NCBI GenBank assembly: GCA_002702575.1
Contig: PAAJ01000016.1
Coordinates: forward strand, 1 to 64,000
Origin: Phycisphaerae bacterium
Lineage (GTDB): Bacteria; Planctomycetota; Phycisphaerae; Phycisphaerales; SM1A02
Direction: 5' to 3'
DNA length: 64,000 nucleotides
In this document: piece by piece, positions 4,886-13,310 of the stretch
Layout: the number at the start of each line of letters is the position of its first letter
Numbering within the stretch: position 1 is the stretch's first letter
The notes under the pieces: model-generated
Told to the model about the DNA's origin: nothing
Databases searched by the model: none
Seen by the model: the letters and a program-made list of their open reading frames with translations, nothing else
Position numbers and translations under genes: made by a program

Positions 4886-5638
4886 CTAACCATCCAGCGA
4901 GGCCATCACCTCGTCGGGAATATCGGCGTTCGTATAGACCTTCTGGACATCGTCATGATCCTCGAAGATCTCGACCAGAGTCATGACCTTGCGAGCGGTG
5001 TCCGCATCGCACTTGACCTGCAGGTCCGGAATCATCGTGATTTCAGCCGAAACCGTTTCGATATTCGCATCTTCGACCGCTTTGAGAACCGCGACGAACT
5101 CGGATGGTTCGCTGGTGATCTCCCAGCCGCCATCGCCTTCGGTGACATCCTCGGCACCGGCTTCCAACGCGAGTTCGACCAGCTGATCCTCCGTAGCCGC
5201 CGAGGCTTCGATCAGGATCACACCCTTGGTCTGGAAACCGAATGCCACGGCACCCGGCTTGGCAAGATTGCCACCGTGCTTCTCGAACGCATGTCGCAGA
5301 TCCGGAGCCGTACGTTGAACATTGTCCGTCAGGCAATCGATGATGATGGCGACGCCGTTCGCGCCGTACCCCTCGTAGCGAATCTCCTGAAAGACGGCAC
5401 CGCCCGAGCCTTCACCACTGGCCTTGGCAATCGCCTTCTGGATCGTATCCTTGGGCATGTTGACGCTCTTGGCGTCCAGAATCGCGTATCGAAGCGTGAG
5501 GTTGGTGTCCGGATCAGGTCCGCCATTCTTCACTGCGACCATGATGGCACGGCTGCACTTCGACCAGGCTTTGCCTTTGACGGCGTCCTGTCGTGCCTTG
5601 CGGTGCTTGATATTCGCCCATTTACTGTGACCGGCCAT
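4886..5638 (-). CDS. yebC: YebC/PmpR family DNA-binding regulatory protein
   Basis: MAGHSKWANIKHRKARQDAVKGK... 250 aa, full-length family match. Confidence 0.96.
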   Translation of the reverse strand: MAGHSKWANIKHRKARQDAVKGKAWSKCSRAIMVAVKNGGPDPDTNLTLRYAILDAKSVNMPKDTIQKAIAKASGEGSGGAVFQEIRYEGYGANGVAIIIDCLTDNVQRTAPDLRHAFEKHGGNLAKPGAVAFGFQTKGVILIEASAATEDQLVELALEAGAEDVTEGDGGWEITSEPSEFVAVLKAVEDANIETVSAEITMIPDLQVKCDADTARKVMTLVEIFEDHDDVQKVYTNADIPDEVMASLDG

Positions 5639-5660: not shown

Positions 5661-7202
5661 TCACCTTGATTCCAGATCGACCAACGGCTGTACCGGACAT
5701 GGTTCTCCGGTCTTCAGAGCCGCCAGCTTGGACTCCAGGTTCAGTTCCAGAGAACCGAATGCAAGATCATACAGTTCGTTCGGATCACGGATTCGACGCC
5801 CCCAGATGGTTCCCTGAATTTCCTGGTTCAGTCGAACGGCCTCCTGCCGGTGCCTTGGATCCAGAAGGATCGCCAGTGCCGACGTCCACGCATCACGGGC
5901 GTCATCCACACGGCCAACTCGGTAGAAGGCATCACCAAGATGATCGAGAATCTCCGGACTCGGTTGATCTGCAGTACGCCGATGGGCTTCCTCCAGAAGT
6001 GAGATGGCACCCGGGCCCTCATCATCATCCTCGAATCGGCCAAGGAGATACTGCAGCCAGCCATACGTATCGAGTATCGCCGGCTGTTCGGGCGCGTCAC
6101 GCCACGCCGTCCGGATCATCCTGATCACGTTCGAGTCCAACCGACCATTGACCATCTCGTAGTAGGCGAGATTGTTTCGAGCCATGACATTCATGGGTTC
6201 ATGCTCGAGCACGTCCTCATAAAGCCATGCCGCACCATCCCGATTTCCCATGTTGCTGTAGAGCATCGCAACCTGGAACAGCAGCTCTGCTGCTGCAGAG
6301 TCGCCGGTTGGCTGTGGAACGAGGATCTCGAGCGTCTTCTCGGGCATCTGATCAACGAGCGACGAAAGTTCGCTGCCGTCATCGAACAGGACCGCCACCC
6401 CTACTGCCATGTCGAAAAGATCGTTCCGCGTCTTCGGTTTCATCTGTGGAAGGTTGTAGAGAACAACCAACGCATCAAATGCGGAATGCTGGGAACCATC
6501 CGTCTGGAAGAGTGAAATCAGATCGAACCACTTGTCCTGCCCCATCTGATAACGAGATCGCCCGTTGATCATCGCATCGATGTCCCGGCGAAGAGATTGT
6601 CTCAAGGACTCGGCCGCCTGCGGCTCGTCAATCTGATACAGAAGCGATGCAAGCAAGGCTTCACCGCGCATCACCTTGTCCGGTCTTGGACGTGTCGACT
6701 TGAGCATGACATTCTTGCCGCCACCAAGTCTCCAGGACAGAAGCAGTGCGGCAGCCTGCTCCAGATCGTCGCGTTCTGCAGCCTCCAGTCCGAGGAAATA
6801 CTGGGCATCCACATCCTGAGGATTGATTCGACCGACCTGTTTCCATGCCTGTTCCGCATAGTCGGCACGCCCCAGACCCTCCCAGTAGAGGGCGACCATT
6901 CGCCAAGCGGCGCCGTTGTCCGGATCAAAGTTGGTCGCACTGGAAAGCATGCCGAGTCCAGCGGCATCCTGTCCACGAAGGAGCAGCTGTCGCGCTTCGA
7001 TGTACTCATGCAGACTTTGACGGGTATCAGGCCTGGACCAGATGCGATTGGCTACATCACCTTCACCGACAACATGGAGATCGCGGCGTTTCTGGACATC
7101 CTTGAGAAGATCCGTGAGCTGGTCGGAAGCTGCCGCAGCCATCTGGGATGAAAGAACCAGCATGACGAGACAGCAGACACAACGACGAATCAGATCACTC
7201 AC
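5661..7202 (-). CDS. TPR-containing exported protein
   Basis: N-terminal signal-like segment; repeated TPR-like helices; ATGA overlap with the upstream gene. Confidence 0.75.
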   Translation of the reverse strand: MSDLIRRCVCCLVMLVLSSQMAAAASDQLTDLLKDVQKRRDLHVVGEGDVANRIWSRPDTRQSLHEYIEARQLLLRGQDAAGLGMLSSATNFDPDNGAAWRMVALYWEGLGRADYAEQAWKQVGRINPQDVDAQYFLGLEAAERDDLEQAAALLLSWRLGGGKNVMLKSTRPRPDKVMRGEALLASLLYQIDEPQAAESLRQSLRRDIDAMINGRSRYQMGQDKWFDLISLFQTDGSQHSAFDALVVLYNLPQMKPKTRNDLFDMAVGVAVLFDDGSELSSLVDQMPEKTLEILVPQPTGDSAAAELLFQVAMLYSNMGNRDGAAWLYEDVLEHEPMNVMARNNLAYYEMVNGRLDSNVIRMIRTAWRDAPEQPAILDTYGWLQYLLGRFEDDDEGPGAISLLEEAHRRTADQPSPEILDHLGDAFYRVGRVDDARDAWTSALAILLDPRHRQEAVRLNQEIQGTIWGRRIRDPNELYDLAFGSLELNLESKLAALKTGEPCPVQPLVDLESR

Positions 7203-8362
7203 GCCTTCTTCTTCCTGGTCGCTGCCTTCTTCTTGGCCGGTGCCTTCTTGCGGGCAGGCGCCTTCTTCCTGGCCGGTGCCTTCTTCTTGGCCGGTGCCTT
7301 CTTCTTGGCCGGTGCCTTCTTCTTGGCTGGCGCCTTCTTCTTGGCCGGTGCCTTCTTCTTGGCAGCCGCCTTCTTCTTGGCCGGTGCCTTCTTCTTGGCA
7401 GCCGCCTTCTTCTTCACCGGTGCCTTCTTCTTGGCAGCCGCCTTCTTCTTCACCGGGGCCTTCTTCTTGGCTGGTGCCTTCTTCTTCACCGGGGCCTTCT
7501 TGGCTGCCGCCTTCTTCTTGGCCGGAGCCTTCTTCGCAGGCGCCTTCTTCACGGCAGCTTTCTTCGTCGCTGCCTTCTTGGCTGCAGCTTCCGCCTTCGC
7601 AGCCGCTTCTGCCTTGGCGGTCTTCTTGGCTTCCTTCTTGCGAGCCTCCGCTTCAGCAGCCTGAATGGCCTTGCGTTTCTCGGCTTCAAGCTTGGCTACC
7701 TGCTTCTTGCGATTCTGAGCATCCTGTTTCTGCTCGGCGAGAAGCTCCTTGGCCAGTCGAACGGATTCCTGATCAGCCCACTGCTGCAGACGCGCCGCGA
7801 CGTCGGGACTGTCATCGCTGCTGACCTGCCTCGACACCCAGGCATTCACTTCTGCAATGTCTGCCGATTCATCGATCGCACCCTTTTCCAGAAGCAAGCG
7901 TCGCATCTGATCATCGATCGGCACCCCCTGGACATCACAGGAATGCATCAACACGAATGACGAGACATACGGAACCATGCCATCCAAGGTCTCGACATAG
8001 TCGCGCGCTTCACGCTTCTTCATGTCGGCCAGCGAATCAAGGGACGTCTCATGCTCTCTGAGAAAGACCGCGTGCAACGCACTCTTGAGCCGCCTGGCAC
8101 GCTCGGTCTTCATGGCATCGTTGAACCCCGCCATCTCGACGATCTCAGAGGGCTTGCAGACCCTCAGATGATTCCAGTCAACCAGTCCATCACGGAGCTT
8201 GCGGCAACTTTCGAGCGCCTTCTCCGTGGTCGATTCCCATGCACAGAAGGCGAATGCCAGTACGGTCACCGGATCCTTCTCGGCAGGCAACACGGATTCC
8301 GCCGCCTTCAGCTTCTTCAAAACCGCCTTCAGCTTGGTGGCATGTTTCGTGGAGTTCTTCAC
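7199..8362 (-). CDS. HhH-GPD (endonuclease III)-like N-terminal domain fused to a histone H1-like lysine/alanine/proline-rich tail
   Basis: N-term ~190 aa with LDGMVPYVSSFVLMHSCDVQGVPIDDQMRRLL resembling the HhH-GPD core; C-term (KKAPAK)n tail; overlaps the rbfA stop by 4 bp. Confidence 0.7.
   Translation of the reverse strand: MKNSTKHATKLKAVLKKLKAAESVLPAEKDPVTVLAFAFCAWESTTEKALESCRKLRDGLVDWNHLRVCKPSEIVEMAGFNDAMKTERARRLKSALHAVFLREHETSLDSLADMKKREARDYVETLDGMVPYVSSFVLMHSCDVQGVPIDDQMRRLLLEKGAIDESADIAEVNAWVSRQVSSDDSPDVAARLQQWADQESVRLAKELLAEQKQDAQNRKKQVAKLEAEKRKAIQAAEAEARKKEAKKTAKAEAAAKAEAAAKKAATKKAAVKKAPAKKAPAKKKAAAKKAPVKKKAPAKKKAPVKKKAAAKKKAPVKKKAAAKKKAPAKKKAAAKKKAPAKKKAPAKKKAPAKKKAPAKKKAPARKKAPARKKAPAKKKAATRKKKA
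7203..7560 (-). repeat. Coding minisatellite: degenerate ~18-bp units encoding KKAPAK/KKAAAK
   Basis: Repeated gccttcttcttggccggt / gccttcttcttcaccggt units read directly. Confidence 0.85.
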
Positions 8363-8769
8363 GTCGTCTCGTCCTCGGTAGGTGTCTGATCAGCCTCATC
8401 GGGCTGCTTGTTGTTCTTCAGTGACTCTTCGCGACGCTTGGCTTCGTTGATGGCTGCCAGAACCTCGGCTTCGCGTTTCAGTGATTCATCGATCTTGTAC
8501 CGCAGTCGCGGCACGCGTCGCATTTCCAGTTTCTCTTTCAGCTCCCTGTGGATCCTTCCAGCAGCGTGCTTCAACCCCTTTTCGACAAGTCCACTCTTGC
8601 TCGCCGGCATGACCGAACACCAGACCGTTCCCTGACGTCCATCAGGACTGATCTCCACACGTGTCACGGTAATGACTCCACTGATCCGTGGGTCCGAAAG
8701 ACCCCTCGCGAAAACGTCCTGGACGCTTCGTTTCAGTACGGACTCGATCTGGGCGCGATGATGACCCAT
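8359..8769 (-). CDS. rbfA: Ribosome-binding factor A
   Basis: 136 aa; DPRISGVITVTRVEISPDGRQGTVWCSVM...; immediately follows infB. Confidence 0.92.
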   Translation of the reverse strand: MGHHRAQIESVLKRSVQDVFARGLSDPRISGVITVTRVEISPDGRQGTVWCSVMPASKSGLVEKGLKHAAGRIHRELKEKLEMRRVPRLRYKIDESLKREAEVLAAINEAKRREESLKNNKQPDEADQTPTEDETT

Positions 8770-8793: not shown

Positions 8794-11538
8794 TCACAGC
8801 GTTGGTGCAACCTCCTGGGACTTGTAGCACTCGAGCACATCGCCGACCTTGATGTCGTCATAGCCATCGATGAGCATGCCACATTCCTGTCCACTGCGGA
8901 CCTCCTTGGCATCGTCCTTGAACCGCTTCAGCTGTGACAGCTTGCGATCTGCCTCGATGACGATGTCCTCACGTGTCACACGAATAAGTGCGTTCCGCTC
9001 AATGGAACCATCCGTGACATAACAACCGGCAACCATGCCGACCTTCGAGATCTTGAAGACCTCCCGAACCTCGGCATGACCGATGACCTCGATGCGATGC
9101 TCCGGATCCAGAAGACCGACCATCGCTTTCTTCAGATCGTCACTGATGTCGTAGATCACGTCATACAAGCGGATATCGACACCAGCCTTCTCAGCGGCAC
9201 GACGGGCACCTGCCGATGTCGTGACATTGAAACCGATCACGATGGCACCGGAGGCCTCCGCCAGGGCGACATCGGACTCGTTGATACCGCCTACTGCCGT
9301 GTGCTTGACGGACACCGTGATGTCATCCGTGGAAAGCTTCTTCAAGGTGACATCGAGTGTCTCGACGGAACCCTGGACATCACCCTTGATGATGATGGGC
9401 AGTTCCTTCTGATCCGCACCTTCCAGCTTCTCGAAGATGTTGTCGAGCGTGACCTTCTCGCGGGACAGGGCCTTGTTTCGATCCGCTTCGATCCGTTCCT
9501 TGGAAGCCGTTTCAGCCTCACGGATGGATTTGACCACATAGAACTTGTCACCGGCGTCCGGAACCTCGTTCATGCCGGAGATGGCGACTGGCGTCGATGG
9601 AAGGGACGACTCGATACGTCGACCATGATCGTCGATCATGTCACGAACCCGGCCGTAGGCACGACCGAGAACGATGAAGGAACCTTTCTCGAGCTTGCCT
9701 TGCTGGACGAGAATGTTGGCGACGGCGCCTCGGCCTTCCTGCAACTGGGCTTCGAGGACGATTCCCTCGGCACGACCACCGAAATCGGCGGTCAGTTCGA
9801 GCAGCTGGGCCTGAAGATCCAGCACCTCGAGGAGATCCTGTACACCGTCTCCATTCGTGGCACTGGTCCTGACGACCTCGATGTCACCGCCCCACTCGAC
9901 CGGATTCAATTCATGTTCGGCCAGCTGACCGAGAATCCGCTGGATGTTGTTGTCCGTCGCCTCAGCCTTGTCGATCTTGTTCAGAGCGACCACGATCGGA
10001 ACACCAGCAGCCTTTGCGTGATTGATCGACTCGATGGTCTGGGGCATCACGCCGTCATCGGCAGCAACGACCAGTACGACGATGTCGGTCGCCTGCGCAC
10101 CACGAGCTCTCATGGCCGTGAATGCCTCGTGACCAGGGGTATCGATGAAGGTGATCAGCCGGTTTTCATCACCGAGTGTGACGGGCACCTGGAAGGCACT
10201 CGTAGCCTGAGTGATTCCACCCGCCTCGCCTTCGGCAACATTGGCATTTCTGATTCTGTCCAGCAGCGAGGTCTTGCCGTGATCGACATGACCGAGAATG
10301 GTGACCACGGGCGAACGGCCCTGTTCATCGACCATCTCACGATCAGCGAAATCCTGAGCAATCTGTTCCTCGGCGGTCTTCTGTTCGATGACCTCCAGCT
10401 CGATGCCGAATTCCATCATGGTCTCGATTGCCGACTCGCTGTCCAGCACGCTGTTGACCGTTGTCGTATGACCGGCCAGGAACAGTTTCTTGACGATGTC
10501 GGCAGCCTTGACGCCTGTCGCGGCACTGAGCTCCTTGATCGTGATCGGCTCAGTCACCTTGACGGCGCCGCCGGTCTCGGCAGCGGTCTTGGCACGCTGT
10601 CCGCCTGAACCATCCGTTCGCTTCTGGACATCACGTCTTGCGGCCTTGAAGAAACCACCCGCACGTGAAAGTCGTCGTTCACGCTCGAGAAGATCCTGTT
10701 GTCGCCAACTGCCCTGGCGACCCTGCTCTGGCGTGAGCGTTCCTCGGCCGGAACGACCCTCGGGACGAGATGAACTGCGACGCTTGTTTCTTCGGGACGG
10801 GCGACGGTCATCACCTGGTCCACCGTCCCCGGGTGGCATCATGTCCGGGCCACCGGCGGGTCCTCGAGCAGCGGGCGACCGAGATGGTCGCGGCTGCCGA
10901 ACGGGCTCCGGCTGCTCGACACGAATGACCTTGGGGCCTGCAAGCGTGGTCTTCACGGGCTGCTTCAATTGACGCCCTGCCGGCGTCACGACCTTCGGCT
11001 TCTCAGGTGCATTGGGAACCGCATCGGGAACCTTTTCAAGCTGAGGAAGATCGGGGCTGTCGGAATCTGGACTGGATCCATCATCATCCGTCTGTTCACT
11101 GACGCTTTCACTTGGGGGAACCATGTCACCAGTCGAGGTTGCGGGAGGCGTTGACGCCGCAACTTCGGGCACCGGTGGCACCGCGATCTCGGAAGGTGGA
11201 GCAATCGGTGGTGGCGGCGGAACCGATGGTGGTGGTTCTACCGGCGCTTCAACCGTTGGCTCGACCGGCTTGGCCTTTGGAGCTCGCCGCTTGGCACGAG
11301 CACGCGCTTTGTCCAGATCGACAGGTGCTGCCGTCTGAACGGCTGATCCACCATCGGCCTCGGCGGCGGATGAGAACCACTCGCGGATCGTGGCCGCAAG
11401 CCCTGCCGACAATGTCGACATGTGATTGGTTACCTGTGAGATCCCCTCATTGGAACACTTCGCGACAACGTCCTTCGACGTCACACCAAGTTCCTTGGCG
11501 ATCTGGTGAACCCTGATTGTGCCCGTTTTTTTCGCCAC
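8794..11538 (-). CDS. infB: Translation initiation factor IF-2
   Basis: [24 protein letters not shown] GTPase motifs; IF2_N domain [15 protein letters not shown]. Confidence 0.98.
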
Positions 11539-11613: not shown

Positions 11614-13041
11614 TCAAGCCGTGTTCGAAGCGTCCTCCTCGTTCGTGTCTGATTCGCTTGCAGCCGAATCGACTGCATCCTCAACAGACTCCTCCGAGTC
11701 TGCAACTGGTTCCGATGCTTCCGTCACTGCCGGGGCCACCGGGCCTCCACCAAGAATGGCGTCAGCTGCAGCCTCTGCGGAAACGTCCTGCTCACCACCC
11801 GCCAGAACGGCATCGGCAGCGGCCATTTCTTCGGTGCGACGCTTCTCTTCCTCTTCCTTCTCACGCTGCTGCTGCTCGGCAACTTCCTTGGCTCGCTCTG
11901 CACAGACAGCCGCCACCGTGTTCGACAGGGCTTCGTCCATGCCGACCTCGGACTGAAGGACTTCGACACCGACTTCCTCGACATCGAAGACACTGATCAT
12001 GCCCAGTGCGCCCATGCGGTCCAGCATGGTGTCCTCGATACCTTCAATAGGTCGAACGGTGGACTCCAAAGTCTCCAGGCTCTTGGCGAACTCAGCGGGC
12101 GTCAGGATGTCGATATCCCAACCGGTCAGACGCGCTGCCAGTCTCACGTTCTGGCCACGACGACCGATGGCCAGTGAGAGCTGATCCTCGCGAACGATGA
12201 TGGTCGCTCTTCCAAGTTCGAAACAGAGGCTGACTTCCTCGACCTCCGCAGGCTTGAGTGCATTGGCGATCAGGATCTGACTGGATTCGTTCCAACGCAC
12301 GATGTCGATCTTCTCGCCACCGAGTTCATCGACGATGTTGCGGATACGACTGCCACGAACACCCACGCAGGCACCGACTGCATCCACCTTCGAATCGATG
12401 GATGACACCGCGATCTTGGTCCTGAATCCGGCTTCGCGGGCCATGGCCTTGATCTCGATGATGTGCTCCGACACTTCCGGAACCTCGGCCTCGAAGAGGC
12501 GGCGGATGAAATCGGGATGGCTCCTGGAGAGCACGATCTTCACCCGGCTTCCATCCTCGCGGACTTCCTTGATCAGACACCGGACTCGATCGCCCGGGTG
12601 GAACTGCTCGCCCTGGATCTGCTCCGAACGGGGCATGAAGCCCTCCGTCCGCTCGATCTGGACGACGAGTGCACCACCCTCATACCGGTGAGCCGTGCCG
12701 GTGAGCACTTCACCAACGCGCTTGGAGAACTCGTCCAGAATGCTGGCGCGTTCGTCTTCACGGAAACGCTGGATCATCACCTGCTTCGCGGTCTGGGCGG
12801 GGATCCTGCCAAGACTCGCGATGGGGATCTCGCTGAAATGACCTTCTTCATCCGCTCGCCACAGATGCATGTCACCGTTGAGCGGATCGATCTGACACCG
12901 GAATTCCTCGGCGTCCAGTGAATTGAAGTGCTTGCGTGCAGCACTGACCATGGCCTGCTCGAGGTCGTTGATCAGCAGCTCCCGTTCGATATTCCGATCA
13001 CGCGCGATGGCGTCAATGATTCGGATGGTCTCAGCGTTCAT
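11614..13041 (-). CDS. nusA: Transcription termination/antitermination factor NusA
   Basis: MNAETIRIIDAIARDRNIERELLINDLEQAM; S1/KH motifs ACVGVRGSRIRNIVDELGGEKIDIV and LAIGRRGQNVRLAARLTGWDIDI. Confidence 0.97.
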   Translation of the reverse strand: MNAETIRIIDAIARDRNIERELLINDLEQAMVSAARKHFNSLDAEEFRCQIDPLNGDMHLWRADEEGHFSEIPIASLGRIPAQTAKQVMIQRFREDERASILDEFSKRVGEVLTGTAHRYEGGALVVQIERTEGFMPRSEQIQGEQFHPGDRVRCLIKEVREDGSRVKIVLSRSHPDFIRRLFEAEVPEVSEHIIEIKAMAREAGFRTKIAVSSIDSKVDAVGACVGVRGSRIRNIVDELGGEKIDIVRWNESSQILIANALKPAEVEEVSLCFELGRATIIVREDQLSLAIGRRGQNVRLAARLTGWDIDILTPAEFAKSLETLESTVRPIEGIEDTMLDRMGALGMISVFDVEEVGVEVLQSEVGMDEALSNTVAAVCAERAKEVAEQQQREKEEEEKRRTEEMAAADAVLAGGEQDVSAEAAADAILGGGPVAPAVTEASEPVADSEESVEDAVDSAASESDTNEEDASNTA

Positions 13042-13310
13042 GTTCGTTGCTCGTTCACCGCCTGGAAGCGGTCTGGAAAAGGCGGACAAGCCGCCGGAAT
13101 CGGTCCCGCGTGGTCTCCCTGGACGTCACAGGCCACGGGCAACATGCCGTTTCCGGCTGCCAGCCCGTGGCCCGCGGTTGCCCGGCAGCATCGTGCCTTC
13201 CGAGCGAACGTCGTGATGAACGCTCACTCAGACCACGGTGCCACCTGAAATCAAGGCCACACGCGGACCATCTGAAATGTCGAGCCGACGGATGACATCA
13301 TCCGTCGCAC
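13042..13310 (-). promoter_or_regulatory. Structured leader upstream of nusA with several inverted repeats, including a terminator-like hairpin with a competing pairing
   Basis: Perfect inverted repeats at 13286-13307, 13131-13172 and 13081-13095; the last is followed on the minus strand by TTTT. Confidence 0.45.

Follow-up and report, generated by a model that had tools for sequence, protein, structure and literature searches.

We describe a family of planctomycete proteins that appears to derive from the DNA-repair enzyme endonuclease III (EndoIII) and has probably been given a new housekeeping job, because the parts responsible for repair chemistry are lost and one other motif is kept almost unchanged. 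The member examined here is encoded in a 64,000-nt stretch of the genome of a Phycisphaerae bacterium (contig PAAJ01000016.1; the window) and, as judged by structural modelling, belongs to the HhH-GPD (endonuclease III) fold. Sequence comparison and structure prediction mark the family as a third, divergent EndoIII-derived paralogue across Planctomycetota, next to ordinary Nth and MutY, and we see about an even chance that its members share a constitutive, nucleic-acid-associated binding role with no need for base excision. Somewhat more tentatively, we propose a housekeeping “pseudo-glycosylase” family that has lost base-excision chemistry and, by way of a novel surface formed by D-x-N-[DE]-x-R-V and of a Lys-rich tether, has taken on a different nucleic-acid- or ribosome-linked role, co-expressed with RbfA, IF2 and NusA. 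In the mechanism we envisage, the folded head would recognise its ligand, a feature of DNA being the likeliest and RNA or protein possible, via the conserved D-x-N-[DE]-x-R-V motif as a putative surface, and the charged helix and Lys-rich tail that follow would tether the head.

The open reading frame is a real gene under purifying selection, given a core dN/dS of 0.055–0.19 between genus members where this ratio is estimable (dS being near or past saturation). Its GTG start shares 4 nt (GTGA) with the stop codon of rbfA and its own stop shares 4 nt with the GTG start of a TPR-repeat gene; because of these overlaps at both ends, it is probably translationally coupled to both neighbours, and from the overlap we infer co-transcription with rbfA. 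Pfam assignments give the operon order nusA-infB-rbfA-HhH-GPD-like gene-TPR-yebC (Table 1). Two plus-strand open reading frames (7042-7824 and 7233-7664) were rejected as genes, being antisense by-products of the 18-bp tandem repeat (7208-7535) that underlies the C-terminal tail.

Table 1 Positions of the HhH-GPD-like gene, its protein features and its operon neighbours in the window
Feature	Position	Strand	Basis
Complete gene, encoding 387 aa from GTG to TGA	7199..8362	-	ORF list and dN/dS of core
HhH-GPD (EndoIII-like) domain, residues 1-180	7823..8362	-	AF2, Foldseek, profile vs PDB
Family signature VDWNHLRV, residues 61-68	8159..8182	-	Homologue alignment
Degenerate helix-hairpin-helix loop LDGMVPYVS, residues 126-134	7961..7987	-	Alignments
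Asp150, catalytic-Asp position of HhH-GPD glycosylases	7913..7915	-	Aligned with EndoIII-1 and ROS1
Long charged alpha-helix (predicted), residues 182-269 (start to ~residue 203 inside modelled domain)	7556..7819	-	AF2 full length
Disordered Lys/Ala/Pro tail, residues 270-387, KKAPAK-like hexapeptides	7202..7555	-	AF2, DNA repeat
rbfA, directly upstream, 4-nt overlap	8359..8769	-	Pfam RBFA E 1.4e-22
infB	8794..11538	-	Pfam
nusA	11614..13089	-	Pfam
TPR-repeat protein, 4-nt overlap with stop of HhH-GPD-like gene	5661..7202	-	Pfam
yebC	4886..5638	-	Pfam

A sequence-only reading of this stretch had proposed a degenerate EndoIII-type HhH-GPD domain, to be abandoned if structure prediction gave no such fold or pointed to an unrelated family; profile comparison, AlphaFold2 (AF2) and Foldseek all agree on HhH-GPD. 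AF2 applied to residues 1-204 yielded the two-domain, all-helical fold (pLDDT 94.5, pTM 0.90), and a Foldseek search of the PDB placed Deinococcus EndoIII-3, EndoIII-1 and Bacillus EndoIII at the top, then ROS1, MagIII, MIG and MutY, with query TM-scores of ~0.6-0.68 against HhH-GPD enzymes. At the sequence level, a single-sequence search of the PDB returned EndoIII-1 marginally (E 0.016), and a profile of 50 homologues recovered D. radiodurans EndoIII-1 at E 3.6e-13 and Arabidopsis ROS1 at E 8.1e-7, followed by weaker AlkA-, OGG1- and EndoIII-type matches; 1kea scored E 0.06. The Pfam HhH-GPD model (PF00730) matched neither the protein nor any of the 50 homologues (0/50 at E 0.1). Matches to Pfam Bac_luciferase and to a PDB fatty-acid peroxygenase were weak and discarded as chance. 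We also rejected identity with the monofunctional glycosylase DR2438 model NF053634 (27 bits vs a curated cut-off of 400 bits), a match that is unspecific since the model also hits all 14 control genomes and the Nth and MutY of this genome, MutY with the higher score.

The active site departs from that of EndoIII in several places. In the hairpin loop (G128-M-V130), Val130 occupies the position expected for the second Gly of the GxG, a motif that is, to our knowledge, near-universal in active HhH-GPD enzymes, and Val130-Pro131 would remove backbone contacts to the DNA phosphate. Tyr132 aligns with the catalytic Lys of EndoIII-1 and a Cys4 Fe-S motif (C-X6-C-X2-C-X5-C) was not found in the protein, as the sequence-only reading had stated of both. 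Its assignment of an Asp to the catalytic position is likewise upheld, with D150 (P148-I-D150, after the Gly/Pro loop) aligning to the corresponding residue of both EndoIII-1 and ROS1. In the family signature, the protein reads VDWNHLRV against a consensus of D-x-N-[DE]-x-R-V, so that H65 replaces D/E.

Relatives occur in 190 of 246 genomes sampled across Planctomycetota, and an orthologue is present in 60 of 61 genomes sampled down to order level. The 178 homologues that were aligned were split by profile score into near (75), mid (45) and far (58) groups. Patterns for the near clade, scanned against 84,980 species genomes, matched only planctomycete records, a scan that is uninformative on distant members in other phyla. 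A literature search that covered few subscription papers turned up nothing published on an HhH-GPD family in planctomycetes. Across the alignment, every homologue has R67 (178/178), and almost all keep N64 (177/178) and D62 (175/178); the lyase Lys occurs in none of the 178 and the hairpin GxG in just one, outside the near group (0/75). Because the far members were retrieved by a profile that itself carries the motif, the apparent invariance of D-x-N-[DE]-x-R-V is inflated in that group and motif-less members may have been missed; the mid group, which lies a wide margin above threshold, keeps the motif in essentially all 45.

The catalytic Asp is retained in 140/178 homologues (near 74/75, mid 38/45, far 28/58), and its loss commonly leaves N, S or T (6/7 mid, 19/30 far), which could still cap the helix but would do so without the usual catalysis. 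Loss of the Asp is no proof of inactivity, since Sis-HhH-GPD of Saccharolobus, a recently described divergent HhH-GPD protein that likewise has altered catalytic residues (Glu134 in place of the Lys and Ser in place of the Asp), excises alkylated bases (PMC11754123). An EndoIII-type Cys4 motif (typically C-X6-C-X2-C-X5-C) survives in 30/178 homologues (near 0/75, mid 3/45, far 27/58), which argues, independently of fold prediction, for descent from an EndoIII-like Fe-S ancestor; this distribution would fit loss of the Fe-S cluster on the route to the clade of the window. The Asp state and the Fe-S state have each switched at least 10 times, minimum counts taken from a quick tree whose branches are long and whose outgroup is uncertainly placed. 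In 17 of the 30 Cys4-keeping homologues (for example L193, L198, L204 and L206) the catalytic Asp is missing, leaving an Fe-S motif without the usual catalysis. The earlier suggestion that a repair fold has been repurposed is supported by these patterns: GxG and Lys are lost phylum-wide, Asp has been lost repeatedly, and D-x-N-[DE]-x-R-V is near-invariant. Furthermore, this genome also encodes canonical Nth and MutY with motifs intact, so base excision repair is already covered.

Several observations were made alongside this survey. The G055 and G032 genomes carry a second, weaker family match apart from the main copy (L169:3457-4317 (+) and L168), the second G055 copy apparently with an N-terminal extension. 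At L165:1973-3769 (-), a protein of 598 aa joins an EndoIII/DR2438-type HhH-GPD glycosylase with a C5-cytosine DNA methylase (PF00730 + PF00145), a combination that might link the writing of 5mC to T:G repair. An IMG/VR scan for VDWNE[x]RV returned two contigs, both with the same unrelated phage protein, and tblastn of a far member against plasmids returned just ordinary endonuclease III-like genes (~25-33% identity); both leads were dropped.

Among solved structures, the best sequence match is D. radiodurans EndoIII-1 (DR2438; 4unf, 8a5c, 8a5f), an enzyme with weak thymine-glycol activity (PMC5128194) that shares the fold, the aligned Asp and the D-W that opens the family motif, but that, unlike the protein here, retains both Lys and GxG (LPGVGVKT), carries a [4Fe-4S] cluster and lacks N-[DE]-x-R. 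D. radiodurans EndoIII-3 (4uob, 8a5g), the top Foldseek match, provides an EndoIII-like precedent for binding abasic DNA with undetectable activity (PMC5128194); it differs in keeping the catalytic residues and Fe-S cluster, and no such Lys-rich tail has been reported for it. The plant 5mC glycosylases ROS1/DEMETER, the second-best profile match, have VDW-x-x-[IL]-R in common with the family and a core joined to a Lys-rich region, which in ROS1 confers methylation-independent DNA binding and sliding (PMC3526269). In contrast to the protein here, ROS1 has both Lys and Asp, a split domain, a further C-terminal domain and its Lys-rich region at the N-terminus; of the Lys, Asp and Fe-S core that defines ROS1/DEMETER, the protein has neither the Lys nor the Cys4.

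The strongest alternative, which we regard as unlikely though far from negligible, is that in the clade of the window the protein is catalytically active as a monofunctional DNA glycosylase of the MIG/MBD4 type and that far members lost activity later. Asp150 would then activate water with Tyr132 at the Lys site, no Fe-S cluster would be needed and the tail would aid sliding to lesions. MBD4 has no Fe-S cluster, and both MIG and MBD4 keep the hairpin. Like MIG and MBD4, the protein combines an Asp with a Tyr at the position where bifunctional enzymes have Lys (D150, Y132), and Foldseek matches it to the thymine-DNA glycosylase 1kea, to which sequence similarity is marginal. What occupies the Lys position differs between enzymes: EndoIII and OGG1 have Lys, MIG has Tyr, AlkA has Trp and MutY has Ser (PMC11754123). 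In the monofunctional MBD4, D560 acts as general base and Y540 contacts the flipped thymine (PMC12073362). Within the near clade, only five of the 170 columns are more conserved than that of Asp150, and position 132 is Tyr or Phe in 75/75 homologues; this near-invariance would fit retained catalysis, and because of it the glycosylase remains a serious rival. However, the same 75 homologues all lack the hairpin GxG, the residues most conserved phylum-wide sit outside the active site, and Nth and MutY are already present in the genome.

Beyond the core, the sequence-only reading had described a Lys/Ala/Pro tail of ~150 aa. A tail of this composition is present, but full-length AF2 divides the region into a continuous charged helix of ~87 residues, reaching residue 269, and a disordered end of 118 residues (pLDDT about 50). 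The helix has pLDDT about 95 to residue 260 and is to be taken as a prediction, long K/E/A helices often receiving high predicted confidence. The low-complexity composition of the tail is H1-like and resembles that of HC2/Hc1-type bacterial tails, although here it follows a folded domain that resembles an enzyme, and Pfam HC2 did not match this protein. Net charge after the core is about +69 in this protein; in 111 of 121 near and mid homologues the tail has a net charge of at least +5, its length ranges from 7 to 220, and length and charge show at least 24 changes on the quick tree. Four homologues of one related family in the same order (L044, L045, L047, L048) have 7-12 aa after the core with the gene still behind rbfA, a natural tail-less control, and in L129 the C-terminal extension after 7582 is acidic (net -6), possibly through misassembly or a frameshift. 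The same tail type is found on at least four genes of this genome, a lower bound from exact and relaxed DNA patterns: the HhH-GPD-like gene, a TraR/DksA zinc-finger protein, trigger factor and topoisomerase VI subunit A (the last uncommon in bacteria). Tailed trigger factor, Topo VI-A and DksA/TraR-like protein were seen at L242:1176-2711 (-), L243:1058-2263 (+) and L162:2891-3835 (+), respectively. The tail thus appears, from its distribution among sequences, to be a generic module, and because the tailed families act on RNA polymerase, ribosomes and DNA, it implies polyanion binding rather than chromatin.

A second alternative, which we hold to be quite improbable, is an RNA- or ribosome-associated factor in which the fold would now bind either rRNA or a translation factor, with the Lys-rich tail acting like that on the trigger factor of this genome. 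RbfA is a 30S maturation factor. Its gene immediately precedes the HhH-GPD-like gene in 72/72 testable near loci and 40/44 mid loci, in the window as part of the nusA-infB-rbfA operon. The gene for YebC, an RNA-binding translation factor (PMC12234827), lies just downstream in several far loci and is directly adjacent in L166 and L230. With the tail type shared by trigger factor and the DNA-binding hairpin broken, a gene that travels with rbfA would fit a ribosome or RNA role. Set against this, the family descends from an enzyme that acts on DNA, and the clade of the window retains the Asp; the operon position may just reflect constitutive expression, the rbfA link is mostly lost in far members (5/58), and the tail type also occurs on Topo VI-A, a DNA enzyme.

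The chromatin-like, DNA-compacting role that the sequence-only reading had favoured, in which DNA would be compacted by an H1-like tail and the head would contribute a shape or lesion preference, draws on the composition, length and charge of the disordered tail but has very little likelihood, given a conserved head beside a tail that varies widely and is nearly absent in some relatives, the generic nature of that tail, a broken DNA-gripping hairpin and an operon context beside rbfA unlike that of a nucleoid protein.

For the preferred reading of a repurposed EndoIII-derived family, a repair fold that occurs in most of the phylum, lies beside the core translation operon in the order of the window and lacks the lyase and DNA-gripping motifs would point to an unrecognised conserved function of Planctomycetota. 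The family is invisible to Pfam, and its near-invariant motif offers a direct handle for mutagenesis. Ultimately, the Fe-S-keeping intermediates make the route from an enzyme to a possible non-enzyme traceable.
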